The position numbers and the translations under genes were made by a program. Shown in pieces: positions 1,246 through 44,735 of a stretch of DNA of 64,000 nt (position 1 is the stretch's first letter; every line of letters starts with the position of its first letter). The DNA is from Kineococcus rubinsiae. Lineage in GTDB: Bacteria > Actinomycetota > Actinomycetes > Actinomycetales > Kineococcaceae. The stretch is from assembly GCF_011839805.1 (NCBI RefSeq), contig NZ_VWPY01000016.1, positions 1 to 64,000 on the forward strand, given 5' to 3'. The notes below the pieces were generated by a model. It ran no database searches and had not been told where the DNA came from. It was given only the letters and a program-made list of their open reading frames with translations.

Positions 1246-1292
1246 TTGACTGACTGGTCCAGCAAGGCGTACGTTCAAGACCAATCAGTCAA
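1246..1292 (+). promoter_or_regulatory. TetR-type operator overlapping a promoter
   Basis: The arms TTGACTGACTGGTC (1246-1259) and GACCAATCAGTCAA (1279-1292) form an inverted repeat that matches at 13 of 14 positions. A promoter lies inside it: -35 TTGACT at 1246-1251, an 18-base spacer, and -10 TACGTT at 1270-1275. A dimeric repressor bound here would block RNA polymerase. The likely ligand is the TetR protein encoded third in the downstream gene set (3485-4114); that pairing is inference from position. Confidence 0.75.
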
Positions 1293-1311
1293 CAACCGAA
1301 CGGGAGCCACC

Positions 1312-2073
1312 GTGAACAGCACCGCGAACCCCAACGCCCTCACCGGCAGGACCGCCCTGGTCACCGGCGGCACGTCCGGCATCGGCCTGGCCGTCGTCCA
1401 CCGCTTCGTCGCCGAGGGCGCCCACGTCGTCCTCACCGGCCGGCGCCAGGCCCAGCTCGACGCGGTCGCGGCCGAGCTCGGCGACGCCGTCACCACCGTG
1501 CGCGCCGACGCCTCCGACCCGGCTCAGGTCGCCGCCCTCTTCGACGCCGTCGCCGCCCGCGGCACCGGGCTGGACGCGGTGCACGTCAACGCCGGCCTCG
1601 GGGAGTTCAAGCCCCTGGCCGACGTCAGCCCCGCCGACATCGACGCCGCCTTCGCCACCAACGTCCGCGGCACCACGCTGACCGTGCAGGGGGCTCTGCC
1701 CTTCCTGAACGACGGCGCCACCATCGTGGTGACCGGGTCCACCGCCGCCTCGGGGACGGAGAAGAGCTTCGGCCTCTACGGCGCCTCCAAGGCCGCGGTC
1801 GCCACGCTGACCCGCACGTGGGCCGCCGAACTGGCCCCGCGCGGCATCCGCATCAACACCGTCATCCCCGGCCCGACCGAGACCCCGGGGCTGAAGGGCC
1901 TGGCCCCGGGCAGCGGGGACGCCCTGGTCCAGCAGATCGCCGCCGGGCTGCCGTTCGGGCGGGTGTTGCGGCCCGAGGAGGTCGCCGCCGTCGTCCTCTT
2001 CCTCGTCTCGCAGGAGAGCTCGGGCATGACCGGCAGCGAGGTCTACGTCGACGGCGGCTCCACCATCGCCTGA
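1312..2073 (+). CDS. SDR family NAD(P)-dependent oxidoreductase
   Basis: This is a 253-residue classical short-chain dehydrogenase/reductase. Visible motifs are the cofactor-binding TGGTSGIG near residue 20, the NAG motif (VNAGLGEF), a catalytic Ser in VTGSTA and the YGASK catalytic Tyr/Lys pair, with a C-terminal VDGG ending. GTG 1312 is chosen because GGGAG precedes it and upstream in-frame codons fall inside the operator. It is the first gene behind the 1246-1292 operator. An MFS exporter and a TetR follow on the same strand, a typical TetR-controlled response unit for a small toxic or redox-active compound. The substrate cannot be read from sequence. Confidence 0.88.
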   Translation: MNSTANPNALTGRTALVTGGTSGIGLAVVHRFVAEGAHVVLTGRRQAQLDAVAAELGDAVTTVRADASDPAQVAALFDAVAARGTGLDAVHVNAGLGEFKPLADVSPADIDAAFATNVRGTTLTVQGALPFLNDGATIVVTGSTAASGTEKSFGLYGASKAAVATLTRTWAAELAPRGIRINTVIPGPTETPGLKGLAPGSGDALVQQIAAGLPFGRVLRPEEVAAVVLFLVSQESSGMTGSEVYVDGGSTIA

Positions 2074-2141
2074 TCCCGCACCGCCTCATCCCGGCCCACC
2101 CCGACCACCCCGACCACCCACCACCAGCGAGGAGCTCCCCC

Positions 2142-3404
2142 GTGGACGACCGCACCCCCACCCCCCTTCCGCCCGCGACCGACCCCGCCGCGAGGCGCGG
2201 GTGGCTCGGTGTCTCCTCCGTCGCCCTCGGCTCCTTCGCGATCGTCCTGTCGGAGTTCCTGCCCGTCGGGCTCCTGACCTCCATCGCCTCCGACCTCGAC
2301 GTCCGGATCGGGACGGCCGGCCTCATGGTCGTCGTCACGGGCCTCTTCGCGGCGATCGCCGCCCCCGCCGTGACGGTGGCCGCCTCCGGCCTCGACCGGC
2401 GGGTCGTCCTCGTCGGCCTCAGCGCGCTGCTGGTCCTCTCCGACGTCCTCGCCGCCCTCGCCCCGGGCTTCGCCGTCCTCCTGCTGGCCCGTGTCCTGCT
2501 GGGGGTCAGCCTCGGCGGGTTCTGGGCGACCGGGGCCGGGATCGCGGGGCGGCTGGTGCCCGCGGGCGACACGATCCGCGCGACCGCGCTGATCACCGGC
2601 GGGATCTCCGTGGCCACCGTCGTGAGCCTCCCGCTGGGCGCGGCGGTCTCGGCGCTGTCGACCTGGCGCCTCGCCTTCGTCATCGGCGCCGCCGTCGGGC
2701 TCCTCGCGCTGCTCCTGCAGCTGCTGACGCTGCCGGGCATCCCCTCGGCCCACCGGGTCGGGGTGTCCGCGCTCGGCTCGCTGTTCCGGGTTCCGCGCGC
2801 CCGGATCGGGCTCGTCGCGGCGGCGTTCGCCTTCGCCGCGCAGTTCGCCGCCTCGACCTACGTCACCCCCTTCCTGCAGGACCGGGCCGCGGCGGGCCCC
2901 GCGACGGTGACCGCCGCGCTCCTCGCGTTCGGCGTGGCCGGGATCGCGGGCAACTTCGCGGCCGGCGCGACCTTGAGCCGCAGCGTCCTGGGCACGACGG
3001 CGATCGCGAAGGTCGTGCTCGCCGCGGCGGTGCTGCTGCTGCCGCTGCTCGCGCACTCGACCGTCGCGGTCCTCACCCTGGTCGTGGTGTGGGGCTTCGT
3101 GTGGGGGGCACTGCCCCTGGCTCTGCAGACGTGGATGTCCACCGCGTCACCGGCGGGTGTCGAGACCGGGCTCGCCCTGTTCGTCACCACGCTCCAGCTC
3201 GCCCTAGCCGCGGGCTCCGTCCTCGGCGGCGCAGTCGTGACGGTGTCCGGTCTCGACGCGGACTTCCGGCTCGCCGGTGCGATCGCGCTGGTCGGGGCCG
3301 TCGTGTTCCTCGCGCTCGGCTCCCGTCCCGCGGCCACCGCCGGCGTCCCGGCCGAGGGCGCACCCGATCACGGGAGCGTCCCCACCGCGCCGCGATCCTC
3401 CTGA
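2142..3404 (+). CDS. MFS transporter (DHA1-type drug/sugar efflux)
   Basis: This is a 420-residue integral membrane protein with about twelve hydrophobic segments. A short cytoplasmic N-terminus precedes GSFAIVLSEFLPVGLL, which matches the first helix of AraJ/Bcr-type DHA1 exporters. The LDRR loop after helix 2 and a LLLARVLLGVSLGGFW helix are also family-like. GTG 2142 is preceded by AGCGAGGAG at a good distance. It lies 68 bases after the SDR on the same strand and was probably co-transcribed. The likely role is proton-driven efflux; the substrate is unknown. Confidence 0.88.
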   Translation: MDDRTPTPLPPATDPAARRGWLGVSSVALGSFAIVLSEFLPVGLLTSIASDLDVRIGTAGLMVVVTGLFAAIAAPAVTVAASGLDRRVVLVGLSALLVLSDVLAALAPGFAVLLLARVLLGVSLGGFWATGAGIAGRLVPAGDTIRATALITGGISVATVVSLPLGAAVSALSTWRLAFVIGAAVGLLALLLQLLTLPGIPSAHRVGVSALGSLFRVPRARIGLVAAAFAFAAQFAASTYVTPFLQDRAAAGPATVTAALLAFGVAGIAGNFAAGATLSRSVLGTTAIAKVVLAAAVLLLPLLAHSTVAVLTLVVVWGFVWGALPLALQTWMSTASPAGVETGLALFVTTLQLALAAGSVLGGAVVTVSGLDADFRLAGAIALVGAVVFLALGSRPAATAGVPAEGAPDHGSVPTAPRSS

Positions 3405-3484
3405 CGCGCCCAGCCCGCCCGTCCGCCCCCCGGTCGTGCGTCATCATGGACCAGCCGGTCACGAACCCGACCCCAAGGACGACC

Positions 3485-4114
3485 ATGGCCAGACCCCGCA
3501 CGTTCGACGAAGCCGACGTGATCGCCCGCGCCCGGAAGGCGTTCGCGGACACCGGTTTCGCCGGCACGTCCCTGGACACCCTCCTGGAGGCCACCGGCCT
3601 GGCGCGCCAGAGCCTGTACAACGCCTTCGGGGGCAAGAAGGAACTGTTCATGCGGGCGTTCCTCAGCGACGCCGCGGAGGCGGTCGAGGCGGTCGAGTCC
3701 ATCCGGCACGGGGAGGACAGCCCCATCGGGCGCATCCGCTCCCAGCTGGTCAAGGTCGCCGTCGAGCAGGGTTCGGCGCAGGCTGCGCCCTCGCTGTTCA
3801 CCAAGGCCGCCGTCGAGCTCTCGGCGCGCGACGCCGAGGTCGCCTCCACGGTCGAGGCCGCGTTCGAGTCGATGAGCCGGCACTACGCCGCGTGCATCGC
3901 CGAGGCCCAGGCCGCCGGGGAGATCGAGGCCTACGCCGACGCCGACGCCCTGGGGACGTTCTTCTGCGCCGTCATCGAGGGCATGTCCACCCTGGGCGGG
4001 TCCGGGGTGGCGCGAGCCACGTTGCTGGACATCGGCTTCACCAGCATGGCGGCCATCCCGATCACCGACCTGGGCCGTGAGCACCTCGGGACCGGCGACG
4101 GCGACTGGTCCTGA
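3485..4114 (+). CDS. TetR/AcrR family transcriptional repressor
   Basis: This 209-residue protein has an N-terminal helix-turn-helix (residues about 8-55, with FAGTSLDTLLEATGLARQS followed by LYNAFGGKKELF) and a TetR_C-type ligand-binding region. ATG 3485 is preceded by AAGGA at 5-6 bases; an upstream in-frame ATG at about 3446 has no such site. It lies 80 bases after the exporter. It probably binds the inverted repeat at 1246-1292 and so controls its own operon. Its ligand is probably a substrate of the SDR or the exporter (inference). Confidence 0.88.
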   Translation: MARPRTFDEADVIARARKAFADTGFAGTSLDTLLEATGLARQSLYNAFGGKKELFMRAFLSDAAEAVEAVESIRHGEDSPIGRIRSQLVKVAVEQGSAQAAPSLFTKAAVELSARDAEVASTVEAAFESMSRHYAACIAEAQAAGEIEAYADADALGTFFCAVIEGMSTLGGSGVARATLLDIGFTSMAAIPITDLGREHLGTGDGDWS

Positions 4115-4272
4115 CGGCACGGAGGACCAGGCGGCACGGAGGATCAGGCGGCATCACCTCGGCGTGCAGGGTGTCGTCGGTGGCGGCAGGGGGCTACCGC
4201 GCCGTTCCGGTCCCGGTGGGGATCGTGCCGGGTCCCGGCGCGCCGGGCCACGTCTCCTCCGGTGCCCCTCAG

Positions 4273-4288
4273 TAGCGTGCACTCCGTG
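4273..4288 (+). promoter_or_regulatory. -10 box for a leaderless start
   Basis: TAGCGT (4273-4278) lies exactly 7 bases before GTG 4286 and there is no Shine-Dalgarno sequence between them. In actinobacteria this spacing puts the transcription start on the start codon. Confidence 0.6.
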
Positions 4289-4879
4289 CCTGGACCCGCT
4301 GTGCTGCAGCCCTACGACGCCGACTGGCCGCGACGCGCGGCTCGACTGCTCGCCGCCGTGGAACAGGCGGTGGAGCCGCTGAGGGTGGCCGAGTCGTTCG
4401 AGCACATCGGCTCCACGTCGGTGCCGGGCCTCGCCGCCAAGGCGTGCCTCGACCTCCAGGTCCAGGTCAGCGAGCTGCCGCCTCCCGAACTCCTGGACCG
4501 GGCCCTGGCCCCGACCGGCTTCGTCCCCACCACCGGTTCGCGACCGGACTCACCCGGGGTCCACCGCGACATTCCCCGCGGTTCGGAGCAGGTGCCCGAC
4601 GAGGTCTGGCGCAAGCGGCTGTTCGTCTGCGACATCGAGGGACCCGGGGCCGCGATCCTGCACGTCCGGCTCACGGCCTCGCCGTGGGGCCGCTACGCCG
4701 TCTGGTTCCGCGACTGGCTGCGCGCCCACCCCGAGGCCCGCGACCGCTACGCCTCCTTCAAGGCCGGGGTGGCCGCGGAGCACGCCGGCGACGCCGACTA
4801 CGACGACTACACCCGCGCCAAGACCGCGTTCTTCGACGAGGTGCAGGACCAGTTCGAGGCGTGGGGGCGCCGCCGCTGA
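4286..4879 (+). CDS. GrpB family protein (UPF0157, nucleotidyltransferase fold)
   Basis: This 197-residue protein carries the family hallmarks: VLQPYDADWPRRAARLL at the N-terminus, then EHIGSTSVPGLAAK with the GSTSVPG nucleotidyltransferase-like loop, and RDWLRAHPEARDRYASFK near the C-terminus. GrpB domains also occur fused to dephospho-CoA kinase, but the biochemical role of the stand-alone form is not settled. I chose GTG 4286 because the -10 box at 4273-4278 points to a leaderless message; an in-frame GTG at 4262 would lie inside the promoter. A strong hairpin follows the stop. Confidence 0.85.
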   Translation: MPGPAVLQPYDADWPRRAARLLAAVEQAVEPLRVAESFEHIGSTSVPGLAAKACLDLQVQVSELPPPELLDRALAPTGFVPTTGSRPDSPGVHRDIPRGSEQVPDEVWRKRLFVCDIEGPGAAILHVRLTASPWGRYAVWFRDWLRAHPEARDRYASFKAGVAAEHAGDADYDDYTRAKTAFFDEVQDQFEAWGRRR

Positions 4880-4886
4880 ACCGCCT

Positions 4887-4908
4887 GGGTGCCGCCGACT
4901 CGGCACCC
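4887..4908 (+). terminator. hairpin between convergent genes
   Basis: GGGTGCCG (4887-4894) and CGGCACCC (4901-4908) form a perfect 8-bp stem with a 6-base loop, 8 bases after the grpB-like stop. There is no T-run, as is common in high-GC actinobacteria. It sits between convergent genes, so it could serve both directions. Confidence 0.6.
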
Positions 4909-5011
4909 GCGCCGAGGGACCCACTGGTCGGGCTGCGGCCAGTCGGTCGCCCACCGCTGGTTCGCGGTGTTCCCGCGCGGGAGAGGTGCGCCCCGATCAG
5001 CCGCTGCGGGC

Positions 5012-5635
5012 TCAATCCGGGTGGTGCAGCTCCGAGTGCCACGCCTCGGCGAGGGCGCGCACGACGTGAGCCTCGCGGTAGGGCATGCCCCGGACCTTCC
5101 ACTCGAAGAAGGTGACCGCTGCGTTGACCTGCATGAGCATGACGCGAGTGATCGCCTCTTCCCGAGCATCGCCCTCCCAGCGGTCGAGGTGAGGTCCGAG
5201 GCACTCGGCCTGCTCCCTCAGCAGCGTCCAGTCCGTCTGGGCGAACGAGGCGTTGGCGAAGCTCACCTTCATCCCCACCTCGAGACCCACCCGGTGCCGT
5301 TGGAAGTGATCGGTGAGCCTCCTCACCCAGTTCTCCACCTCCGCGCGTGACGGTCGGCCCAGTCCAGCGAGTTGGCGGTACAGCTCGCGCAACTCCTCCT
5401 GGCCTTCCGTGCCGATCGCGATGGAGAGCTGCGACTTGTCGGAGAAGTGGAGGTAGAACGCGGCGCGACTGACACCCGCCTTCTCGGCGATCTGCTCCAC
5501 CGTCGTGTTCTCGAAACCACGCTCGAGGATGAGTGACGATGCGGCCGCGACGATACCGTCTCGCGTCTCCTGTCGTCGGCGTTCGTGGATCGTCGGACGT
5601 CGCGCGGGTTCCTCGATGTCCGTTCCAGGAGGCAT
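5012..5635 (-). CDS. TetR family transcriptional regulator
   Basis: This 207-residue protein has a clear N-terminal TetR helix-turn-helix (ENTTVEQIAEKAGVSRAAFY followed by LHFSDKSQL) and an all-alpha ligand domain. I use ATG 5635, which has a GGTGG-type site just upstream; GTG 5665 would add ten residues and has no ribosome site. It is transcribed away from the SDR-transketolase-phosphofructokinase genes. The intergenic region holds matching half-sites (5874-5910) over the promoter of those genes, so it probably represses them until a pathway intermediate is present. Confidence 0.87.
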   Translation of the reverse strand: MPPGTDIEEPARRPTIHERRRQETRDGIVAAASSLILERGFENTTVEQIAEKAGVSRAAFYLHFSDKSQLSIAIGTEGQEELRELYRQLAGLGRPSRAEVENWVRRLTDHFQRHRVGLEVGMKVSFANASFAQTDWTLLREQAECLGPHLDRWEGDAREEAITRVMLMQVNAAVTFFEWKVRGMPYREAHVVRALAEAWHSELHHPD

Positions 5636-5873
5636 CCGTCCACCGTACTCCTGGACCTGCGACACAGGCGGTGCGGACCGAGGAACCGCGCACCGTCGTC
5701 ACCGAGGCCTCGTACGGCGGAACGAGGACGACTGTCCTCGAGCCGTGCGTCGCCGAGTCGAGCAGGGGGATCCCGGCCGACTCCGCTCTCGGCGCGTGCG
5801 TCCCGGAGCCTGGCGGCGGAGACCTGGTCGGCGCGTGGTCGACCAGGAGGTGGAGGAGGCTGACGGCAGTCGG

Positions 5874-5923
5874 ACTAGACGTACGTCTACTCACTTGACA
5901 CGCGTCTAGTAACTACTTAGTCT
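5874..5923 (+). promoter_or_regulatory. promoter with repeated TAGACG half-sites
   Basis: The rest of the 341-base gap (5636-5873) shows nothing I can support. At its right end, -35 TTGACA (5895-5900), a 17-base spacer and -10 TAGTCT (5918-5923) form a near-consensus promoter reading toward the SDR. TAGACGTACGTCTA (5876-5889) is a perfect 14-bp palindrome. ACTAGACG (5874-5881) is also mirrored by CGTCTAGT (5903-5910), which lies in the spacer. Three half-sites thus straddle the -35 box, as expected for the divergent TetR. Confidence 0.78.
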
Positions 5924-5976
5924 CCGTCCACCGGGTGCTCACCCGGCGTTGGACACGGATGCAAGGAGGCATCGAG

Positions 5977-6828
5977 ATGGCTACAGCTACAGCCACCCCG
6001 CTCGACGAGCTGCTGCCCACGCGGGCCCGCTTCGACCTCACGGGCAAGGTCGCTCTGGTCACCGGGGGAGCCGGCGGGATCGGGCGATCGACCGCCTCCG
6101 CCCTCGCCGACCTCGGAGCGGACGTGGCAGTCGTGGATCTCAAGATCGACACCGCCCGCGAGGTCGCCGAGTTCATCTCGTCCCGCTACGACGTGAAGAC
6201 GACCGCACTCGAGACCGACGTGGCCGATGAGGCGTCCGTGGTCTCCATGTTCGACCAGGTCGTCCGCGACCTCGGCGGACTGGACGTCGTCCACAGCAAC
6301 GCGGGCATCATCACCGGCGACGACAGCGCCGACATGCCGCTCGACTCGTGGCGGCGGATGATCGACATCAACCTCACGAGCATGTTCCTGGTGAATCGTC
6401 ACGCTGCGCGGGTGATGAAGCAGGCGGGGACCCGCGGCTCGGTCATCAACACCGCCTCGATGTCCGGCAGCATCGTGAACCAGGCACCCCCGGGTTCCCG
6501 CCACGGGATCGCCTACTCGACCACGAAGGCCGGCGTGAAGCACCTCACGAAGGGCATGGCCGCCGACTACGCCGTCGACGGGATCCGGTTCAACAGCATC
6601 AGCCCGGGCGTCATGATCTCCGGGATCCACGACGGGTTCCTCAGCCAGATCGGCATCTCGGCGGAGGACTTCCTCGCGACCGCCAAGTCCGGTCCGTCAC
6701 ACCTTCCGATGGAGCGGTTCGGCACGATGGACGAGATCGGCGGCATCGTCGCCTTCCTCGCCACGGACCTCGCTTCGTTCATCACCGGCGCGGACATCCT
6801 CGTCGACGGCGGAACCACGGTCTGGTGA
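5977..6828 (+). CDS. SDR family NAD(P)-dependent oxidoreductase, first gene of the transketolase operon
   Basis: This is a 283-residue classical SDR. It has TGGAGGIG cofactor motif near residue 29, a conserved acidic residue after the second strand (VVDLK, which favours NAD), HSNAG in place of the usual NNAG, NTASMSGS with the catalytic Ser, YSTTK as the catalytic Tyr/Lys pair and a VDGGTT ending. ATG 5977 has AAGGAGG eight bases upstream. The transketolase subunits follow after 35 bases. Position suggests it oxidises a sugar or polyol to the ketose the transketolase consumes. That is inference; the substrate is not readable. Confidence 0.86.
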   Translation: MATATATPLDELLPTRARFDLTGKVALVTGGAGGIGRSTASALADLGADVAVVDLKIDTAREVAEFISSRYDVKTTALETDVADEASVVSMFDQVVRDLGGLDVVHSNAGIITGDDSADMPLDSWRRMIDINLTSMFLVNRHAARVMKQAGTRGSVINTASMSGSIVNQAPPGSRHGIAYSTTKAGVKHLTKGMAADYAVDGIRFNSISPGVMISGIHDGFLSQIGISAEDFLATAKSGPSHLPMERFGTMDEIGGIVAFLATDLASFITGADILVDGGTTVW

Positions 6829-6863
6829 CCCCACCCTCGCAGCTCGACCAGAAGGAGAACGAC

Positions 6864-7748
6864 GTGACGAACCCGACCACCGCTCTGGACGTCGACCTCG
6901 AACTGGTCGAGCACCTGGAGGACAGGGCCGCCCACATCCGCAAGCAGGTCGTCCGCGGCGCCTACCTCATCCCTGGCACGGTCCACCTCGGGGGACCGCT
7001 CAGCGCCACGGACGTCGCGGTCGCGCTCTACTACCACTTCCTCGGCTTCGACCCGGAGAACCTGGACGATCCCGACCGCAACCGGTTCATCCTCAGCAAG
7101 GGCCACAACGGCGTCCTGCTGTACAACATCCTCGCCGACCTCGGCCTGTACACCTTCGACGAGGTCTTCGGGGGGTACAACAAGCCCCACCACCCGTTCG
7201 GGATGCACCCGAACATGCACTACATCAGGGGCATCGAGGCCTCGACCGGCTCGCTCGGACACGGTCTGTCGCTCGGCGTCGGGCTCTCGCTGGCCAACCG
7301 CGCGGACGGACGCACCTCCCGGACCTTCGTCATGACCGGCGACGGAGAGATGGAGGAGGGGTCGAACTGGGAGGCGATCATGTACGCCGGGTCGCACGGT
7401 CTGTCCAACCTCGTCGCCATCGTGGACTTCAACCGCTCGACAGGCTCCTTCCGCCACGGCGAGCACATGGTCGTCGACTGGAAGCCGGCGTTCGAGTCGT
7501 TCGGCTGGGACGTGGTCGAGATCGACGGCAACGACATGACGGCCGTGGTCCGGGCCTTCTCGCAGTTGCCTCCGGTCGTGCCCGGTGAGAAGGGCAAGCC
7601 GGTCGCGGTCATCTCGAACACCGTGAAGGGCTTCGGTGTCGACTTCATGAACGGCCCGAAGTGGCACCTGGGAAGCATCAACGACGAGAACCTGCAGATC
7701 GCGATCGAGAGCATCGACCGCAACAAGCTCGCGAGGAGGAGCCACTGA
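6864..7748 (+). CDS. transketolase N-terminal (TPP-binding) subunit
   Basis: This is a 294-residue half-transketolase. It carries the substrate/TPP loop (GIEASTGSLGHGLS), the thiamine diphosphate/metal motif (TGDGEMEEGSNWEA) and HHPFG upstream of it. Split transketolases encode this domain and the pyrimidine domain on separate genes, as here with the next gene. GTG 6864 is preceded by AAGGAG. Such pairs include ordinary pentose-phosphate enzymes and specialised ones such as apulose-4-phosphate transketolase (AptA/AptB). The tight linkage to an SDR and a TetR argues for a specialised catabolic role. Confidence 0.9.
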   Translation: MTNPTTALDVDLELVEHLEDRAAHIRKQVVRGAYLIPGTVHLGGPLSATDVAVALYYHFLGFDPENLDDPDRNRFILSKGHNGVLLYNILADLGLYTFDEVFGGYNKPHHPFGMHPNMHYIRGIEASTGSLGHGLSLGVGLSLANRADGRTSRTFVMTGDGEMEEGSNWEAIMYAGSHGLSNLVAIVDFNRSTGSFRHGEHMVVDWKPAFESFGWDVVEIDGNDMTAVVRAFSQLPPVVPGEKGKPVAVISNTVKGFGVDFMNGPKWHLGSINDENLQIAIESIDRNKLARRSH

Positions 7749-8761
7749 TGTTCGAGAAGGGCAACGCTTCGTTCAACTTCAGCATGGACGACGCCGTGCA
7801 GATGATGAACGCCCGAGACCTCGTCCCGAAGAAGATCCTCCAGCTCATCGAGAAGGACGAGCGGATCGCCTACCTCAACTCCGACGCCATGCCGGAGGGG
7901 TCCAACGTCCGCGCGGTGTCCGAGCGACTGCCCGACCGCGTCACCGACGTCGGCATCGCGGAGATGAACCTCGTGGGCATCTCCGCGGGCATGGCCCTCG
8001 CGGGGAAGATCCCCTTCGCGAACGCGTTCGGGCCCTTCCTCTCGCTGCGGGCCGTCGACCAGATCCACACGGACGTCGCCTACCAGAACCTCCCCGTCCG
8101 GCTCATCGCCACCCACGGAGGGACGACCCCCGGTGGAGGCCCCACGCACTACGCCATCTGCGACTTCGCGATCATGAACTCGATCCCGAACATGACCGTG
8201 ATCGCGCCCTCCGACGCGAACCAGTCGGTCAAGGTCATCGAGGCGTCCGTCGACTACCCGGGGCCGATCTTCATGCGCATCGCGCGCGGTGATGAGCCCC
8301 AGGTCTACCCGGACGGGGCCGACTACGACTTCGAGATCGGGAAGTCCATCCGTGTCCGCGAGGGTGTGGACGCGACGATCATCGGCGCCGGAGTCGGCGT
8401 CTGGCTGGGCCTGCAGGCTTCGCTGCGCCTGGAGCAGGAGGGCTTCAGCGTCCGCGTGATCGACATGCACACCATCAAGCCGCTCGACCGCGAGGCCGTC
8501 GTGGCTGCGGCACGCGAGACCGGTCACATCGTGACCGTCGAGGACCACAACATCGAGGGAGGTCTCGGAACCCTCGTCGCGGCCGCCATCGCCGAGGCCG
8601 GAGTCGCCGTGAAGCTGAAGAAGCTCGGGGTCCCCGACGAGTTCGCCCTGCTGGGCAACCCGGACTCGATCTACCCGGAGTACGGCTACGACGTCGAAGG
8701 GGTCACGAACACCACGCGCGCCCTGATCAGTCCTGACGCGCCCGCCGGGGCGCAGGGGTGA
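7748..8761 (+). CDS. transketolase C-terminal (pyrimidine-binding) subunit
   Basis: This 337-residue protein forms the second half of the split enzyme. It has the pyrimidine-binding domain with the catalytic Glu in GIAEMNLVGISAGMAL, a THGGTTPGGGPTHYAICD loop and a C-terminal transketolase domain (VRVIDMHTIKPLD, then IVTVEDHNIEGGLG). Its ATG overlaps the previous stop (TGATG), which implies translational coupling and equal amounts of the two subunits. It transfers a two-carbon ketol unit with TPP in the cytoplasm. The donor ketose is unknown. Confidence 0.9.
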   Translation: MFEKGNASFNFSMDDAVQMMNARDLVPKKILQLIEKDERIAYLNSDAMPEGSNVRAVSERLPDRVTDVGIAEMNLVGISAGMALAGKIPFANAFGPFLSLRAVDQIHTDVAYQNLPVRLIATHGGTTPGGGPTHYAICDFAIMNSIPNMTVIAPSDANQSVKVIEASVDYPGPIFMRIARGDEPQVYPDGADYDFEIGKSIRVREGVDATIIGAGVGVWLGLQASLRLEQEGFSVRVIDMHTIKPLDREAVVAAARETGHIVTVEDHNIEGGLGTLVAAAIAEAGVAVKLKKLGVPDEFALLGNPDSIYPEYGYDVEGVTNTTRALISPDAPAGAQG

Positions 8762-8766
8762 CGCGT

Positions 8767-8830
8767 CGCCGTGCCCGCCCGCTCCGACGCAGGGACGTCG
8801 CCGCGGGACCGGGCACGGCGATGCATCGCC
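8767..8830. repeat. 11-bp inverted repeat between transketolase and phosphofructokinase
   Basis: CGCCGTGCCCG (8767-8777) is mirrored exactly by CGGGCACGGCG (8820-8830) across a 42-base GC-rich spacer. A perfect 12-bp palindrome GCGATGCATCGC (8828-8839) abuts it. The whole lies in the 126-base gap before the phosphofructokinase. It could be an attenuator, a processing site or a protein-binding site. Confidence 0.4.
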
Positions 8831-8887
8831 CACCGCACTGGGTCGAGCCCATCGGGCCCACTCGCCCATGCTCCTCGAGAGGTCTCC

Positions 8888-9916
8888 ATGCGCATCGGTC
8901 TGCTGACGTCCGGCGGTGACTGCCCGGGGCTGAACGCCGTCATCAGAGGGGCGGTCCTGGCCGGAACACGTGCTCACGACAACGACTTCGTCGGCTTCAA
9001 GTACGGTTGGAAGGGTGTCCTGGAAGCAGACCTGGTGGCGCTCGACCGCCTCAGCGTCCGCGGCATCTCCAAGCAGGGCGGCACCATCCTCGGCTCCTCG
9101 CGCACCAACCCGTTCGAGGGACCGCGCGGTGGTGCGGCGAACGTCGCGAAGGTCCTCCACGACCACCAGGTCGACGGCATCATCGCCATCGGCGGAGAAG
9201 GGACGCTCACCGCCGCCCGTCGACTCGCCGATGCCGGCCTGCCCGTGCTCGGTGTCCCCAAGACGATCGACAACGACCTCGCCGCGACCGACTACTCCTT
9301 CGGCTTCGACACCGCCGTGGAGATCGCCACCGAGGCCATCGACCGCATCCGCACGACTGCCGAGTCCCACCAGCGGTGCATCGTCGTGGAAGTGATGGGT
9401 CGCCATGCGGGGTGGATCGCCCTGCACTCGGGGATGGCGGCCGGCGCCCACGCCATCCTCATCCCCGAGCAGTCCGTGGGCCTCGGTGAGATCTGCACCT
9501 GGGTCGAGATGGTCAGGGACCGCGGCAGAGCTCCGGTCATCGTCGTCGCCGAAGGCTTCGTGCTCGAAGGTGCGGCCGAAGCGCACTCTCACAAGGGTCT
9601 CGACGCGTTCAACCGCCCTCGGTTGGGAGGGATCGCCGACCATCTCGCCCCGCTCATCCAGATGAAGACCGGCATCGAATCGCGAGCCACCACGCTCGGT
9701 TTCAGTCAGCGCGGAGGTGTGCCCAGCGCTTACGACCGCGTCTTCGCCACCCGGCTGGGGATGGCCGCCGCGGGTGCTGCCGCGAAGGGCCGGTGGGGAA
9801 GCATGGTGGCTCTGAGGGGCACGGACATCGTCTCGGTCAGCATCGCCGATGCCACCAACGCATTGAACCGCGTGCCCCAGGCACGCTACGACGAGGCGGC
9901 GCTCCTCTTCGGCTGA
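8888..9916 (+). CDS. pfkA: 6-phosphofructokinase (actinobacterial PfkA group)
   Basis: This 342-residue enzyme has the canonical PFK elements: LTSGGDCPGLNAVIRG at the N-terminus, GGEGT near residue 103, PKTIDNDL with the catalytic Asp, MGRHAGWIA and AEGF. It phosphorylates fructose 6-phosphate or a related ketose phosphate such as sedoheptulose 7-phosphate. The Gly after GGE is the residue found in ATP-dependent forms (Asp in PPi-dependent ones), but the Lys in PKTIDND is the PPi-type residue; actinobacterial ATP enzymes are known to combine them. The start ATG 8888 gives the standard MRIGLLTSGGD beginning. It follows the transketolase on the same strand. Confidence 0.92.
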   Translation: MRIGLLTSGGDCPGLNAVIRGAVLAGTRAHDNDFVGFKYGWKGVLEADLVALDRLSVRGISKQGGTILGSSRTNPFEGPRGGAANVAKVLHDHQVDGIIAIGGEGTLTAARRLADAGLPVLGVPKTIDNDLAATDYSFGFDTAVEIATEAIDRIRTTAESHQRCIVVEVMGRHAGWIALHSGMAAGAHAILIPEQSVGLGEICTWVEMVRDRGRAPVIVVAEGFVLEGAAEAHSHKGLDAFNRPRLGGIADHLAPLIQMKTGIESRATTLGFSQRGGVPSAYDRVFATRLGMAAAGAAAKGRWGSMVALRGTDIVSVSIADATNALNRVPQARYDEAALLFG

Positions 9917-11293: not shown

Positions 11294-11986
11294 GTGGTGG
11301 CCGCCGGGTCTGGTCGCCGTGCCGGTCGGGCTGTCATCCTCGTCGTCGTGCAGCATGCGTTCGGAGTGCCGGTTCCGGAGAACCTGACCGAGATGTGCGC
11401 CGCTGGGGCCAGCGCGGTGCTGGTCTACGACGCTCAGGTCGGCATCTTCGCCCACGTCCGGGAGCGCGAGACGCTCACCGGGCGCATCGGCGCGGTGCTG
11501 ACCGCCGCCCGAGCCGCCGCGGTCCCGGTGCTGTACGTGCGGCACGTGTCGTTGCCGCCGTCGCACCTGGGGGTGGCCGGGCTGCGCACGGCGATGGCCT
11601 GGCAGCGGGTGCCGCAGGCCGGCGACGTCGTGGCTCCCTTCCCGCCGGCGGCGCCGCAGACGCAGCTGGTCGCCGAGCTCACCCCGGTCGGGGCCGAGCC
11701 GGTGTTCGACAAGCTCGGCATGTCGGCGTTCGTGGGCACACCTCTGGAGGCGGTGCTGCGGGACCGGGGGGTGAGGACCCTGGTGCTCGTGGGGGCGGTG
11801 CTGGAGATCGGCATCGAGCCCACGGCCCGGCACGCCGCCGACCTCGGGTTCCTGCCGGTCGTGGTGCAGGACGCCTGCGGGGTGGTGGACGCCGAGGCGG
11901 CCCAGCGCTCGGTGCAGGCGCTGGACTACACCTTGAGCTGCTACCGCGGCACGGCCGCTCAGGTCGTGGCTGCCTTCGGCGGCTGA
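11294..11986 (+). CDS. isochorismatase-family hydrolase, non-cysteine type
   Basis: This 230-residue protein has the isochorismatase fold: VLVYDAQVGIF with the catalytic Asp, then PVFDKLGMSAFVGTPLEAVL with the conserved Lys. The segment where cysteine hydrolases carry a nucleophilic Cys reads LVLVGAVLEIGIEPTARHAA, with no Cys. This matches a known branch with an EIGIE signature. GTG 11294 has GGGGAGG four bases upstream; homologue-like sequence begins nearer GTG 11366, so the true N-terminus could be shorter. It could hydrolyse a vinyl ether or act in nicotinamide-like chemistry; substrate unknown. Confidence 0.78.
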   Translation: MVAAGSGRRAGRAVILVVVQHAFGVPVPENLTEMCAAGASAVLVYDAQVGIFAHVRERETLTGRIGAVLTAARAAAVPVLYVRHVSLPPSHLGVAGLRTAMAWQRVPQAGDVVAPFPPAAPQTQLVAELTPVGAEPVFDKLGMSAFVGTPLEAVLRDRGVRTLVLVGAVLEIGIEPTARHAADLGFLPVVVQDACGVVDAEAAQRSVQALDYTLSCYRGTAAQVVAAFGG

Positions 11987-37860: not shown

Positions 37861-38628
37861 TCAGGCGCGGGCCGGCACCGGCCCGGGGGGCGCGACGTCG
37901 CCGGCCTGGCCGACGCGGCGCCCCGCGGTCCGCATGTGGCTGCTCATGGCCGCCGCGGCCGCGGCGGGGTCCGCCGCGACGACCGCCTCGAGCACCGCGC
38001 GGTGCTCCCGGCACGCCGTCAGCGCCTGCTCCCCGGTCTGCAGCCGCCGCTCGGACCACACGCGCAGCAGCGAGCGGATGGTCCGCAGCAGGTCGCCCAT
38101 GACCGCGTTGCCGGCCGCCTGGGCGAGGTGCTGGTGGAAGGCGGCGTCCGCCTCGATGAAGGCGGGCAGGTCGTCGGTGGCGGCCTCCATCGCCGCGAGG
38201 TCCGCCCGCAGCGCCGCGAGCGTCGCGTCGTCGCTGCGTCCCGCGGCCAGCACGGCGGCCTGCACCTCCAGACCCGCGCGGACCTCCGAGAGCTGGGTCG
38301 TGTGGTCGGCCGAGAGCATCAGCCCCCAGCTCAGCGTGGTCGGCAGCAGCTCGGACATGCTGTCGCGGATGTAGGTGCCGGACCCGGGCCGCACCTGGAC
38401 CAGGCCGAGGATCTCCAGCGCGGCGAGGGCCTCGCGGACCGCGGAGCGGCCCACGCCGAGGCTCTCCGCGAGCTGGCGCTCCGGCGGCAGGCGGGACCCG
38501 GCGGCAAAGGTGCCGCCCGCGATCAGCGTGGTCAGCTGGCGCGCGACCTCCGCCACGGCCGAGCCCGGGGCCACGGCGCGCAGCTCCGGGTCGGTGCGGG
38601 CGGGGTCATCGGCGCGGAAGACCGGCAT
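37861..38628 (-). CDS. FadR/GntR family regulator of the apionate gene cluster
   Basis: This 255-residue regulator has a GntR winged helix (GSRLPPERQLAESLGVGRSA followed by VREALAALEILGLV) and an all-helical FCD ligand domain in which the usual metal-binding Asp and His residues are present (FIEADAAFHQHLA, TACREHRAVLEAV). FCD regulators sense sugar acids and keto acids. It is the last gene of the minus-strand operon, five bases after the lactonase-like gene. It probably binds the palindrome at 42363-42376 and controls both arms. An aldonate such as apionate is the likely ligand (inference). Confidence 0.87.
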   Translation of the reverse strand: MPVFRADDPARTDPELRAVAPGSAVAEVARQLTTLIAGGTFAAGSRLPPERQLAESLGVGRSAVREALAALEILGLVQVRPGSGTYIRDSMSELLPTTLSWGLMLSADHTTQLSEVRAGLEVQAAVLAAGRSDDATLAALRADLAAMEAATDDLPAFIEADAAFHQHLAQAAGNAVMGDLLRTIRSLLRVWSERRLQTGEQALTACREHRAVLEAVVAADPAAAAAAMSSHMRTAGRRVGQAGDVAPPGPVPARA

Positions 38629-38633
38629 GCGGG

Positions 38634-40487
38634 TCAGCCTACGGCGGCGGCGTCGGGGGCCCGGTCGCTCGCGGCAGCGGTGGCGCCGCCCGCGGAGGGG
38701 CCGGGACCCTCAAGGCGGACGACGCCCCAGGCGGGCAGCGCGAGCTCCCGCCCGGCCACGCGCAGCCGCCGGGCGACGCCCGTGAGGTCGGCCGCGAGCA
38801 CCGTCAGGCGCCCCGCGCTGCGGGCGGCGACCACGCCGAGCCCGGGCGTGAGCGGGGCGTCGAGGCGCTCCCACCCGTCGAAGTCCTGCAGCCAGCCCAC
38901 CACCTCCGCGACGGGGAGGGCGACGCCGTCGGCGGTCGTCGTGCCGCGCGGCCCCCAGGTCTCGCAGGCCGTGATCGAGGCGACCCCCGCGACGGCGAAC
39001 GCCTGGTGGGCGGCCAGCAGCCAGGCGGCCGCGCCGCGCCCGGCCTGGCGCGGGTCGTCGGCGCCCCAGACGTGCTGCGGCCCGGTGCCGTCGGTCCGGA
39101 CGTCGGCGTCGGCGGGCCGGTGCGCCGACGTGGCGACCGCGTTGAAACGCGCGCGCAGGGTCACGGGGCCGACGTGCACGGGCCGCCCGGCCGCGATCCG
39201 CACGGCCTCCTCGGCCGTGAGCCGCTGCACCGCGACGGAGGCCAGCAGCTGCGGGCGCCCGGTGTCGTGCATCTGCGGGGTGCTGGAGAAGACGAGGGCG
39301 GGCACGTCCCCGGGGAGCTCGCCGTGCCGGCGGTTCAGCTCGGTGAAGTGCGCGCGGGTGCCCCCGGCGACGGGCAGGTCGCCCCGCAGGCGCAGCAGGC
39401 GCTCCCACAGCGGTGCCGTCGTGACGTGGGTGGCGACGTCGTGCACGGCGACCCGCACGACGGGGCCTTCTTCGTGCAGGGCCGCCAGCACCGGGTCGAG
39501 CTGCCCGGGGTGGGCGGCCGTGACGCGCACGTCGAGGCCCGCGGCCCCGGCCTCGCGGCGGGCCCGGGCCAGGACGCCGGGCCACGCCGGTCCGGTCGCG
39601 TCGAGCTCGACGAGCACCGGGCCGCGCCACCAACCCAGCCGGAGTTCCCCGCCGGGCCCGTCGCCCGGAGCGGTGGACGCCGCGAGCTGCAACCGGGGCA
39701 GCGGCTGCCCGGTGGGGGTGAGGTCGACCTGCTCCACCGGCGCGGGGACGACGCGGGGCGCCGTCGCCGCCGTCAGCGGGACGACCGCGAGGTCGAGGGC
39801 CTGGGTGAACGTGGCACCGACCGCGAGGTCGACGGGGAACGGCCGGTCCAGCGGGGTGCTGTAGGTCTTGAACGAGGCGTCGGTCCAGTTCCGCTGGTCC
39901 TCGACCTCGAACACGTCCCCCGTCAGGTCGAGCGTGACCCGTTGCGCTGCAGGGCCGCCGGTGTCCCAGTCGAGGCCCGCGACGTCGCGGGCCGGCTGGT
40001 GCGGGGCGATGCGCGCGGGGAACTCCGCGCCGGTGCGGGAACCGTCGGGGTGGCGCACCCGCAGCGGGGTGCCGGCGAGGGCGGCGGGGTGCAGCACCAC
40101 CAGGCCGAGGCGGTTGCGGCGGAACGCCCGGGTCACCTCCCCGCTCACCTCGACGCGCAGGTGCCCCGCGCCGTCGGTCGATCCGGCCGTGAGGACGGCG
40201 TGCCAGCGGACCCCGGCCCCGAGGGCGTCGTGCTCGGCGGTGAGCTCGACCCGCAACCCCTCGCCCTCGTGGACCTCGACGGCCCACGACGTGACGGGCA
40301 CGGTGCGCCAGTCGTGGTCGCGCACGACGACGCGCACGGCCGTGAGCACGAGCGTCCCGCGGTGGCTGACCTCCTCCACGGACGTCCCGCGCAGCACGAG
40401 GGACCAGTCGCCGGCCGTGAGGATCCGGGGTTCCGGCTCGCCGTCGCCCCAGGCGTCCCCGGCCGGGGACCCGGCCCCGGGGTTCAC
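38634..40487 (-). CDS. apnL: putative D-apionate lactonase (ApnL-like)
   Basis: This 617-residue soluble protein has a beta-rich N-terminal half and an alpha/beta barrel-like C-terminal half. It contains DQRNWTDASFKTYSTPLDRP, a pattern I associate with proteins assigned as D-apionolactone hydrolases in apiose pathways. That memory plus context (an ApnO-like gene and an OiaC-like gene in the same cluster) supports the call. Its role would be to open the lactone made from D-apiose. GTG 40487 overlaps the SDR stop. Without an alignment this stays provisional; it could be another sugar hydrolase. Confidence 0.6.
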   Translation of the reverse strand: MNPGAGSPAGDAWGDGEPEPRILTAGDWSLVLRGTSVEEVSHRGTLVLTAVRVVVRDHDWRTVPVTSWAVEVHEGEGLRVELTAEHDALGAGVRWHAVLTAGSTDGAGHLRVEVSGEVTRAFRRNRLGLVVLHPAALAGTPLRVRHPDGSRTGAEFPARIAPHQPARDVAGLDWDTGGPAAQRVTLDLTGDVFEVEDQRNWTDASFKTYSTPLDRPFPVDLAVGATFTQALDLAVVPLTAATAPRVVPAPVEQVDLTPTGQPLPRLQLAASTAPGDGPGGELRLGWWRGPVLVELDATGPAWPGVLARARREAGAAGLDVRVTAAHPGQLDPVLAALHEEGPVVRVAVHDVATHVTTAPLWERLLRLRGDLPVAGGTRAHFTELNRRHGELPGDVPALVFSSTPQMHDTGRPQLLASVAVQRLTAEEAVRIAAGRPVHVGPVTLRARFNAVATSAHRPADADVRTDGTGPQHVWGADDPRQAGRGAAAWLLAAHQAFAVAGVASITACETWGPRGTTTADGVALPVAEVVGWLQDFDGWERLDAPLTPGLGVVAARSAGRLTVLAADLTGVARRLRVAGRELALPAWGVVRLEGPGPSAGGATAAASDRAPDAAAVG

Positions 40488-41248
40488 AGCGACGTCATCC
40501 CCCCGTCGACGCGGAAGATCGCGCCGGTGGCGAAGGACGACTCGTCGCTGACGAGGTAGACCATGATCCCCTCGACGTCGTCGGGCCGGCCCGCGCGCCC
40601 GAGCGGCGTGCGGGCGATGATCGCCGCGCGGGAGGCGTCGTCGGTGGAGATCGCGCTGACCAGCGGCGTCTCGGTGTAGCCGGGGACGACGGTGTTCACG
40701 CGGATCCCCTCGCCCGCGTAGGCCGCGGCCACGGTGCGCACCAGCCCGTGGACGCCGGCCTTGGAGGAGGAGTAGGCCGTGAAGTCGCGCCCCTCCCCGT
40801 TCAGGCCGGTGGGGCTGCCGGTGCACACGATGGAACCCCCGGCGCCGCGCAGGGCGCGCACGGCGTGCTTGACGGTGAGGAACGTGCCGGTGAGGTTCAC
40901 GTCGAGCGTGCGCCGCCACACGTCGAGGTCGAGGTCCGCGACGGGGGCGTCGGCGCCGAACAGCTGCACGCCCGCGTTGGCCACGACGACGTCCAGCGCG
41001 CCGCCCTCGGCCTGCACCTGCGCGTAGGCCGCGGCGACGCTGTCCTCGTCGGTGACGTCCATCCGCACCGCGACCGCGGCCGGGGCGTCCGGCCCGAGGT
41101 CGGCGACGGCGCGCGCGGCGCCGTCGAGGTCGCGGTCGGCGAACACCACGCGCGCCCCCTCGGCGGCGAACCGCCGCGCCACCGCGAGCCCGATGCCCGA
41201 GGCGGCCCCCGTCACCAGCGCGTGCTTGCCCTGCAGCCGTGCGTGCAT
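40484..41248 (-). CDS. SDR family oxidoreductase of the apionate cluster
   Basis: This 254-residue classical SDR has TGAASGIG (about 14-21), FADRD with an acidic residue favouring NAD, VANAGVQLFG, VCTGSPTG with the catalytic Ser, YSSSK as the Tyr/Lys pair and a VDGGMT ending. It is the second gene of the operon, between the ApnO-like gene (56 bases upstream) and the lactonase-like gene (overlap). By position it could be the dehydrogenase that turns the incoming sugar into its lactone. The described D-apiose dehydrogenase belongs to another family, so this would be a substitution (inference). Confidence 0.86.
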   Translation of the reverse strand: MHARLQGKHALVTGAASGIGLAVARRFAAEGARVVFADRDLDGAARAVADLGPDAPAAVAVRMDVTDEDSVAAAYAQVQAEGGALDVVVANAGVQLFGADAPVADLDLDVWRRTLDVNLTGTFLTVKHAVRALRGAGGSIVCTGSPTGLNGEGRDFTAYSSSKAGVHGLVRTVAAAYAGEGIRVNTVVPGYTETPLVSAISTDDASRAAIIARTPLGRAGRPDDVEGIMVYLVSDESSFATGAIFRVDGGMTSL

Positions 41249-41304
41249 CGTCGTCGTTCCTCCGGGAGTTCTGGTGGGCAGCGGGGTTCCGCGGTCGGGG
41301 CGCT

Positions 41305-42228
41305 TCAGCGCTCGATCTCGTCCAGCTTGAGCATCTTCGTGATGACCGAGTCCAGCTCGGAGTCGGAGAAGATCTTCTTCCAGTCGTCCTTGACGATGGA
41401 CTCGCGGCCGTAGTCCATGGCGATCAGGCACGCGTCGGAGAACGGGTTGGAACCGCGGAGGGTGTTGGTGAGCGCGATCTGCACGTGCCCGTGCAGCATC
41501 GCCTTCGCGGCGGCCTCGGGAACCCCCACGGTGTGCACCGTCTCGTGCAGGGCCTCCTTCAGGAGGGCACCGATCATGCAGGCGATGGTCTCGACGAGCG
41601 TGGGCTCGAGGTAGGCCAGCTGCTTGACGGTGACCCAGTGCACCTCGTCCACCGGGCCGTACATGATCCGGATGACGTCCTCGACGACGTCGCGCGCGGC
41701 GGCGTTCTCGGGGGTCTGCTCGTTGTCGAAGGCGGCCACGACGTTCTGCAGCGCGGCCTCGCCGCCGAAGTTGTCGGCGTACTCCTCGGGGCGGGTGCGC
41801 TCGAGGAACACCGACGGGTGGCAGGGGTGGGCGACGGCCTGCAGGACGTCGGGGCGCTGGGTGAGCAGGTTGGCGTACGCCGCGGCGGGGTCCAGCGTGA
41901 GCAGGGTCGCGCCGGCCTTCATCTGCGGGACGACCGACTGCGAGACGAGGCCGAGGACGGTGTCCGGCACGGCCAGGATCACGACGTCGGCGCCGGCGAC
42001 GGCCTCCTCGGTGGAGACGGCCTCGCGGCCCTCGGCGGCCATGCGCTCCTTGCCGGCGGGGGAGTTCTCGGCGTAGCGCAGGGTGTGGGCGCTGCGGGCG
42101 AGGTTGCGCGAGACGCGCATGCCCATCTTCCCGCCGGCGCCGACGACGGCGACCTGCACGGGGGTCGTCGCGGGACGGGTTGCCGCGGAGGGGGTTCCTG
42201 CGGGGGTGGGGTCGGCGCTGGTGGTCAT
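41305..42228 (-). CDS. apnO: putative D-apionate oxidoisomerase (ApnO-like, PGDH_C family)
   Basis: This 307-residue protein has an N-terminal Rossmann motif (VAVVGAGGKMGMRVSRNL) and a helical C-terminal domain of the phosphogluconate dehydrogenase C-terminal type (VHWVTVKQLAYLEPTLVETI, MLHGHVQIALTN). It lacks the 6-phosphogluconate dehydrogenase signature. This domain pair is that of ApnO, which converts D-apionate to 3-oxo-isoapionate with NAD. ATG 42228 has AAGGAG nine bases upstream. It is first in the minus-strand operon, next to the divergent promoter. The family call is firm; the substrate is from context. Confidence 0.68.
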   Translation of the reverse strand: MTTSADPTPAGTPSAATRPATTPVQVAVVGAGGKMGMRVSRNLARSAHTLRYAENSPAGKERMAAEGREAVSTEEAVAGADVVILAVPDTVLGLVSQSVVPQMKAGATLLTLDPAAAYANLLTQRPDVLQAVAHPCHPSVFLERTRPEEYADNFGGEAALQNVVAAFDNEQTPENAAARDVVEDVIRIMYGPVDEVHWVTVKQLAYLEPTLVETIACMIGALLKEALHETVHTVGVPEAAAKAMLHGHVQIALTNTLRGSNPFSDACLIAMDYGRESIVKDDWKKIFSDSELDSVITKMLKLDEIER

Positions 42229-42361
42229 CGTGGCGTGCTCCTTCTCGTTCGGGAGGAGCCGCGGCCGGGGCTCCGAGGGGCGTTCCGGCGCGCAGCGCTC
42301 CATCGCGCGGCCCCGCTGGTCGTCGCGGGTGGAGCCAGCTTAGGGCCCTCCGCCGACATCC

Positions 42362-42401
42362 GGTCAACCGGTTGACAAGGGTCGAGCCGGGCTGGTCTGA
42401 T
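42362..42401. promoter_or_regulatory. palindromic operator over divergent promoters
   Basis: GTCAACCGGTTGAC (42363-42376) is a perfect 14-bp palindrome. Its right arm is part of a plus-strand -35 TTGACA (42372-42377), with TCTGAT at 42396-42401 after 18 bases. Its left arm, read on the minus strand, is TTGACC (42367-42362), with TAAGCT (42342-42337) after 19 bases. One bound FadR dimer would cover both -35 boxes and silence both arms. Confidence 0.72.
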
Positions 42402-42468
42402 CGCTGCAGCACGCTCCGCAGCGTTCACCGCTCCCGCCACGTCGTCGTGGCCGCAGATCGAGGTCTCC

Positions 42469-43179
42469 ATGACGGATGTCCACCCGAGCACCCCCGCCGC
42501 CACCCCCCGCACTCCCGCTGCCGCGCAGCGCCTCCCGCGCGGTCGCCGCACCGGCCGCCGCCGCCGCGTCGTCACCGCCGTCGCCGTGGTGGCGCTCCTC
42601 GCGGCCATGGCCGCGAGCACCCAGGTGCGCTCCACGGAGGCCGCCGAGCAGCAGGCCGCGGCCGCCACGTTCGACCCGCAGGCGTGGGCGGCGAAGACCT
42701 ACCCGGGGCAGGCCGAGGCCATCACCACCTCCGCCGTGGACCTGGCGCAGCTCCTGGGTGAGGTGGCCGCGGACCCGCAGGCCGCCGGGGAGCGCTACGG
42801 CCACCAGACCGGGGCCACGAGCCCCTTCACCTACCCGGTCAAGACCACCGGGACGGCCGGCGAGGTCAAGGGCACGTTCCTCACCCTCGACGTCCCGGGC
42901 CTGCCCGCCGGCACCACGGTGCGCGTGCAGACCGGGCCGGCGATCACCGGGACCGCGGTGCGCGACGCGACCGGGACCATCGCGTTCGGGCAGTTCACCA
43001 ACCAGGTCGACTACGCCGACGCGGGGACCGCCCTGAACGACCAGGTCCGCACCGCCGTCCTGGCCGGCGTGGACGCGGCGGCGCTCGCGGGCCGCCAGGT
43101 CAGCGTCGTCGGGGCCGTGTCCCTGCTGACGCCCGCGAGCCTCGCCATCACGCCCGTGCAGCTGGTGGTGGCCCCGTGA
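42469..43179 (+). CDS. DUF2291 family exported protein
   Basis: This 236-residue protein has a long basic N-terminus, one hydrophobic helix (VVTAVAVVALLAAMAAST, residues about 36-55) and an extracytoplasmic domain with FDPQAWAAKTYPG, GHQTGATSPFTYPVK and GQFTNQVDYADAGTALN. These match DUF2291, a predicted periplasmic or lipoprotein family that occurs almost only next to ribose-type sugar ABC transporters. Here the signal has no Cys lipobox, so it is probably membrane-anchored by its helix. It is first in the plus-strand arm and its stop overlaps the ATPase start. Confidence 0.83.
   Translation: MTDVHPSTPAATPRTPAAAQRLPRGRRTGRRRRVVTAVAVVALLAAMAASTQVRSTEAAEQQAAAATFDPQAWAAKTYPGQAEAITTSAVDLAQLLGEVAADPQAAGERYGHQTGATSPFTYPVKTTGTAGEVKGTFLTLDVPGLPAGTTVRVQTGPAITGTAVRDATGTIAFGQFTNQVDYADAGTALNDQVRTAVLAGVDAAALAGRQVSVVGAVSLLTPASLAITPVQLVVAP

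Positions 43180-44731: not shown

Positions 44732-44735
<4 letters not shown>
43176..44735 (+). CDS. sugar ABC transporter ATP-binding protein (RbsA/XylG type)
   Basis: This 519-residue protein has two fused ATPase domains. The first has Walker A GENGAGKST (about 47-55), a degenerate signature LGQQQLVEIA and Walker B LIMDEPTSAL. The second has GLMGAGRTEL in place of a normal Walker A, LSGGNQQKVVIGKAL as signature and LLLDEPSRGVDVG. This asymmetry is typical of the carbohydrate CUT2 family. It powers import of a monosaccharide. GTG 43176 overlaps the DUF2291 stop and the permease start overlaps its own stop. Confidence 0.95.

Follow-up and report, generated by a model that had tools for sequence, protein, structure and literature searches.

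A putative catabolic unit of Kineococcus rubinsiae with a split transketolase related by sequence to the steroid desmolase DesAB

Positions 5012–9916 of the stretch analyzed here, the first 64,000 nucleotides of contig NZ_VWPY01000016.1 of Kineococcus rubinsiae (assembly GCF_011839805.1; the window in the following), encode a TetR-family regulator and, divergently from it, a short-chain dehydrogenase/reductase (SDR), the N and C halves of a transketolase (TKN and TKC), and a phosphofructokinase (PFK). Judged by its sequence, the TKN–TKC pair is kin to the steroid desmolase DesAB but lies outside the DesAB clade. The original prediction, made from the DNA letters without database searches, missed this kinship with DesEAB. 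We consider it fairly probable that the genes form a catabolic operon under TetR repression, similar to desEAB in its mode of action but belonging to a sister lineage with its own substrate; a polyol or a branched-chain ketol precursor seems more probable as that substrate than a steroid.

Phylogenetic position of the transketolase pair

A pattern scan across the genomes of 84,980 species, biased toward near relatives by its start from a single window protein, yielded 21 loci. The nearest relative was found in Rathayibacter sp. VKM Ac-2857 (genome G405, locus L029), with 72.8% identity for TKN and 71.9% for TKC. TKN identity was 48–55% in 17 of the remaining 20 loci and 39–42% in the other three. 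The 17 include Agathobaculum desmolans ATCC 43058, Clostridium cadaveris, Arcanobacterium urinimassiliense, and metagenome-assembled genomes (MAGs). Compared with A. desmolans, the window TKN is 48.6% identical to DesA and TKC 51.9% to DesB; identity of TKN to C. cadaveris DesA is 48.7%. An SDR gene immediately precedes TKN–TKC in A. desmolans, C. cadaveris, Arcanobacterium, a Propionibacterium MAG, and others.

We built a tree of 48 rows and 625 columns from TKN plus TKC, leaving out three near-copies. Window and Rathayibacter group together (100/99) and are sister to a 14-row DesAB clade (100/100) that includes A. desmolans ATCC 43058 and C. cadaveris, and the union of both is supported at 100/99. 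The next branch outward is an uncultured Agathobaculum pair (locus L044; 100/99), followed by three actinobacterial rows that group together (99/95). Beyond these come the ordinary split pairs of actinobacteria and E. coli TktA, the latter on a long outer branch, and a quick tree agrees. A forced clade of window and Rathayibacter with the A. desmolans/C. cadaveris subgroup was rejected in an approximately unbiased (AU) test (p-AU 1e-38); both groups used in AU tests were named after the tree had been seen.

Single alignment columns give a similar picture. There are 22 TKN and 20 TKC columns that the window and Rathayibacter share with 14 or more of the 16 DesAB rows and that occur in at most 3 of 26 other split-pair rows; these 42 columns correspond to 41 residues and one shared one-residue deletion. 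A further 30 TKN and 37 TKC columns typical of DesAB are not common to both window and Rathayibacter. From the shared columns and the sister position, yet with 67 unshared DesAB-typical positions, it follows that the unit is kin to DesAB and not part of it. Loss of E. coli Asp469 was also considered as a sign of steroid use, but we dropped it because the position is non-Asp in all other split pairs compared as well.

The pair has all three domains of a thiamine pyrophosphate (TPP)-dependent transketolase and keeps the TPP glutamate and the catalytic histidines. At E. coli TktA positions 26, 66, 100, 261, 411, 461, 473, and 520, which we take to be important for TPP binding, catalysis, and phosphate contact, it has H, H, H, H, E, H, H, and R. 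The best solved-structure match of both TKN and TKC is 6YAK, the split transketolase of Carboxydothermus hydrogenoformans, which likewise carries its N and C halves on two chains; we know of no SDR, TetR, or PFK associated with it. This enzyme is described as accepting bulky aldehydes (PMC7661550).

Close relatives of the pair are rare. Searching the 11 other genomes of the family with TKN gave no match better than 1e-43, and none of 393 other genomes of the class had one at E 1e-70 or better. With TKC, none of 395 other genomes of the order matched at E 1e-80 or better and two did at about 1e-76; both the class set and the order set were sampled from larger groups.

Composition and putative control of the unit

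All five genes of the original prediction are present in the sequence. The PFK start was shifted to 8888, the open reading frame from 8771 being a mechanical extension; for TetR, an alternative GTG start at 5665 is possible. The TKN and TKC genes are adjacent and overlap in TGATG. The features are as follows:

5012..5635, minus strand: TetR-family regulator, 207 amino acids, divergent from the operon; PF00440 (TetR_N) 4.1e-16
5876..5889, no strand assigned: proposed TetR operator 1, perfect palindrome TAGACGTACGTCTA; in the source genome the motif occurs only here and at 5895
5891..5908, plus strand: TCACTTGACACGCGTCTA, proposed -35 element (TTGACA) overlapping proposed operator 2; 17 of 18 bases as in Rathayibacter
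5977..6828, plus strand: SDR dehydrogenase, distantly DesE-like, 283 amino acids; adh_short_C2 2.6e-54
6864..7748, plus strand: TKN, DesA-like, 294 amino acids, GTG start; PF00456 (Transketolase_N) 7.4e-35
7748..8761, plus strand: TKC, DesB-like, 337 amino acids; PF02779 (Transket_pyr) 4.7e-30, PF02780 (Transketolase_C) 2.6e-28
8756..8831, plus strand: strong hairpin in the TKC–PFK gap, 22-nt arms, folding z -4.3, no T run found
8888..9916, plus strand: PFK of the mixed-substrate group, 342 amino acids; GGEGT and PKTIDND motifs; PFK Pfam 8.9e-98; TIGR02483 441 bits (cut-off 431)

The source genome (G000; 4.88 Mb, 119 contigs) has a separate full-length transketolase elsewhere and two further PFKs. 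The split pair and the operon PFK, the third PFK of this genome, are hence extra copies. It had been held at the outset that this is not a standard pentose-phosphate layout, and grouping of the pair with housekeeping transketolases had been named as the outcome that would speak against it. No such grouping occurred, with E. coli TktA far off in the tree, and a special-purpose split transketolase accompanied by an SDR and a PFK is borne out. The operon PFK is 70% identical to the Rathayibacter operon copy. Another PFK of the source genome (C97:5896-6786, locus L051) combines PKTIDND with GGEDT, compared with GGEGT in the operon PFK; in this GGE(G/D)T position, Gly goes with ATP and Asp with pyrophosphate (PPi). 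The combination in L051 is one known from PPi-dependent enzymes.

The Rathayibacter cluster comprises TetR, a divergent GPH symporter (MFS_2), SDR, TKN, TKC, PFK, and, after PFK, a class II fructose-bisphosphate (FBP) aldolase. Its TetR is 32% identical to that of the window over 191 amino acids. In a small tree panel with five E. coli GPH symporters as contrast, this symporter groups with the L044 symporter and with those at the DesD position in A. massiliense and a Clostridia MAG (100/99).

Pattern TWGACNNNYGTCTA occurs in the source genome only in the TetR–SDR gap, at 5876-5889 and 5895-5908. Its matches in the Rathayibacter genome are confined to the cluster's two divergent promoters, on the SDR and the symporter side. 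The pattern was written from these very sites; a control pattern gave six matches in each genome. In addition, TCACTTGACACGYGTCTA has one match each in the window and in L029 at three or fewer mismatches, with 0.01 expected each, and the 18-bp promoter motif lies 68 nt before the SDR start codon in both. For the TetR control originally proposed, the divergent tetR gene and a motif confined to the locus were thus found, and from these we infer the control itself. A scan for sigma-70 promoters and terminators found no promoter match and no terminator-like site. The TKC–PFK gap of Rathayibacter (L029, about 11866-11960) also holds a strong GC hairpin (z -3.1), unrelated in sequence to that of the window. 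Upstream in the window, at 1246-4114, an SDR, an MFS transporter, and, by eye, a TetR-like open reading frame make up a separate unit.

The dehydrogenase and a proposed route for a ketol

The known steroid-17,20-desmolase organisms include C. cadaveris and A. desmolans, the latter previously named Butyricicoccus desmolans; they have an operon desE-desA-desB (PMC5408610). DesE, an SDR-family protein, has been characterized as a 20β-hydroxysteroid dehydrogenase (20β-HSDH), and the desmolase activity is attributed to DesAB, a split transketolase (PMC5408610).

Among 666 matched solved sequences, the best two for the window SDR are 6m9u and 6ow4. The latter is BaDesE, reported as the 20β-HSDH of Bifidobacterium adolescentis (PMC13348027). 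Identity of the window SDR is 60.6% to the Rathayibacter SDR and 33–44% to DesE-type SDRs of the operons. In a 12-row SDR tree, BaDesE and the gut DesE proteins form an 8-row clade (95/100) that excludes window, Rathayibacter, and L044; the SDR adjoining the pair hence lies outside the 20β-HSDHs of the DesE clade. Window and Rathayibacter SDRs both have Arg at the position of BaDesE Thr195, a residue said to sit by steroid C16 (PMC13348027), and both carry a 10-column lid insertion after a shared SGIHD motif. Tree position, Arg, and insertion together speak against a simple DesE copy. A conserved Asn at BaDesE position 188 was dropped as a sign of steroid use, as the SDR of a sugar-type cluster has Asn too. 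When the SDR structure was predicted from a 7-row alignment, the mean pLDDT was 70, with less than 50 in the C-terminal part.

Outer lineages offer hints on the substrate. L044 (5266-11874, uncultured Agathobaculum MAG) encodes a Zn dehydrogenase, a GPH symporter, a DesC-like dehydrogenase, a DesE-like SDR, TKN, and TKC. This complete Des-like set branches off below both DesAB and the window pair, and a second TKN/TKC-like stretch comes after it. Loci L093 (9083-18955) and L094 (8628-16125), the next outer relatives of the Des and window group, contain TKN, TKC, a DesC-like Zn dehydrogenase (30–39%), and a CUT2-type ABC transporter, with an aldehyde dehydrogenase nearby. They resemble the window unit in having a dehydrogenase beside a split transketolase. 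In contrast to it, however, the Zn dehydrogenase takes the place of the operon SDR, the transporter is of the ABC type, and no adjoining PFK was seen. CUT2-type transporters are of the sort used for sugars, which hints that the Des system stems from sugar or polyol use.

We propose the following route. An inducer would free TetR from the operators at 5876-5908. The SDR would then oxidize a secondary alcohol beside a terminal CH2OH to a ketol R-CO-CH2OH. Transketolases take the CH2OH-CO end of a ketol, and the split pair could accordingly cleave it on TPP, freeing R=O and keeping the two-carbon unit, for which the TPP glutamate, the histidines, and the phosphate-contact positions are retained. 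The two-carbon unit would pass to aldose phosphates, turning glyceraldehyde 3-phosphate (G3P, here also GAP) into xylulose 5-phosphate (Xu5P), ribose 5-phosphate (R5P) into sedoheptulose 7-phosphate (S7P), and erythrose 4-phosphate (E4P) into fructose 6-phosphate (F6P), all transfers of known transketolase chemistry. PFK would phosphorylate F6P and possibly S7P, and an aldolase would return triose phosphates and E4P. The carbon balances: three two-carbon units and one GAP would give three triose phosphates via Xu5P, S7P or sedoheptulose bisphosphate (SBP), E4P, F6P, and FBP. The earlier idea that the SDR makes a ketose, the transketolase splits it, and the kinase feeds glycolysis or acts on S7P fits this route, and the class II FBP aldolase located behind PFK in Rathayibacter lends that idea further weight.

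In analogy to DesEAB, where the SDR sets the C20 oxidation state and the pair removes C20–C21, such chemistry suits any R2C(OH)-CHOH-CH2OH compound. PFK and aldolase make sense if much of the two-carbon carbon is assimilated. A polyol or branched ketol is likelier than a steroid in view of this bulk handling of two-carbon units, the sugar-type transporters seen in the closest outer lineages, and an SDR pocket that is more polar.

An operon that works like desEAB on a substrate of its own is supported by the sister position in the tree, the shared columns, an SDR–TKN–TKC order as in desEAB, and BaDesE as best SDR structure. Further support comes from the DesD-like symporter and the aldolase in Rathayibacter, the conserved extra PFK, and the promoter motif conserved in sequence and spacing. 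Several points weigh against it. None of the members of the window lineage has a known activity, and the operon has no gene to deal with the R=O carbonyl that is split off. In the source genome, no transporter with the operator motif and no match to the Rathayibacter symporter at 1e-15 was found. Only one close relative was found, so that the operon make-up rests on two genomes. Moreover, the likeness of the SDR to DesE is only moderate: in a 197-genome sample of the class, only one other genome (G179) had an SDR at E 1e-45 or better, and this SDR, from an unrelated cluster that by eye is sugar-type (kinase, ABC transporter parts), scores 163 bits compared with 165 bits for A. desmolans DesE.

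Alternatively, the genes might serve as a side unit of the pentose-phosphate pathway. A common polyol would then be converted by the SDR to an ordinary ketose or ketose phosphate, with TKN–TKC acting simply as a second ordinary transketolase. We regard this as unlikely. Polyol and gluconate dehydrogenases are among the SDR families matched, the phosphate-contact positions of the transketolase are kept, and PFK and aldolase are glycolytic, all in agreement with such a role. The pair, however, is far from both housekeeping TktA and ordinary actinobacterial split pairs, among 396 order genomes it occurs in its own genome only (E 1e-80 or better), and the operator motif is confined to the TetR–SDR locus.

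Steroid and apiose alternatives

Could the unit itself be a steroid-17,20-desmolase? With desEAB of A. desmolans, C. cadaveris, and P. lymphophilum it has in common the gene order E-A-B and the sister position of the pair; BaDesE is the best structural match of the SDR, and Rathayibacter has a DesD-like symporter. A 2026 survey, moreover, reports 44 desAB operons among 2.23 million genomes, one plant source being included, at G+C values up to 72.1% and genome sizes up to 4.61 Mb; its main text names no Rathayibacter (PMC12876203). The plant-source or high-G+C operons of this survey may nevertheless include one. The source genome, at 4.88 Mb, exceeds every genome size in that survey.

Still, we judge a desmolase to be quite improbable. 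Accepted DesA proteins are given as 75–82% identical to C. scindens DesA (PMC5408610), whereas the window TKN reaches about 49% with A. desmolans and C. cadaveris DesA; C. scindens was outside the compared set. The pair stands outside the DesAB clade, a joint clade with A. desmolans/C. cadaveris was rejected, and the 67 DesAB-typical positions are not common to both window and Rathayibacter. The SDR falls outside the BaDesE/gut DesE clade and has the Arg and the lid insertion. The regulator is TetR and not LysR, the usual regulator neighbor of desAB operons according to PMC12876203 and PMC5408610, and the unit includes PFK, plus aldolase in Rathayibacter. Finally, HsaC (TIGR03213) was over the cut-off in neither the source nor the Rathayibacter genome (66 and 64 bits vs 366), so this one marker gives no indication that steroid rings are broken down by the classical aerobic pathway.

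Hardly credible is an apulose 4-phosphate transketolase of the AptA/AptB kind with a link to the window's apionate locus, a link that the original prediction had raised and called weak. An apionate-type locus indeed lies about 28 kb off (37861-47868) and comprises GntR, an ApnL-like lactonase (168 bits, below the cut-off of 750), a PGDH_C protein, a DUF2291 and CUT2 ABC transporter, and a xylose isomerase-like TIM barrel protein, and Rathayibacter also has an ApnL-like gene. The tree, however, largely refutes this: the pair of L087 (Rhizobium sp. SL42 plasmid, 4121-8399; a TIM barrel–TKN–TKC–FGGY kinase operon beside a DUF2291/CUT2 transporter), an operon that from its gene neighbors alone we take to be probably one for apiose and its pair to be AptA/AptB-like, lies in another clade, and a forced joint clade was rejected (p-AU 3e-50). 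Apiose isomerase and apulose kinase are missing from the unit, as already noted in the original prediction, and so is any other isomerase or sugar kinase; the neighbors of the pair are SDR, PFK, and TetR. ApnL-like genes are independent of the pair; they occur in 20 of 198 genomes of the order and 6 of 12 of the family, a base rate for which we dropped the apionate link, and in five other genomes of the genus in which close relatives of the pair were looked for and not found. The apionate locus hence looks like a separate matter.

A wider reading, tentative and in our view somewhat less likely than not, is that the window and Rathayibacter operons represent an undescribed catabolic route of SDR ketol formation from a polyol or branched-chain alcohol, two-carbon transfer to sugar phosphates by a dedicated split transketolase, and recycling of the acceptors by a dedicated PFK with aldolase, that DesAB arose from such a route, and that both operons are its living non-steroid sister. 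In the literature searched (open-licence papers only), we found no description of a DesAB sister that is not a steroid enzyme, and we know of no account of the origin of steroid-17,20-desmolase. Bacterial steroid-17,20-desmolase converts cortisol and prednisone to androgens in the gut and urinary tract. Where a survey identifies desAB from gene adjacency and a permissive BLAST cut-off, sisters that are not desmolases may be counted as well. A sister operon in non-gut actinobacteria, with PFK and aldolase attached, would provide an outgroup for testing the ancestral substrate and the residues that changed as steroid cleavage arose.

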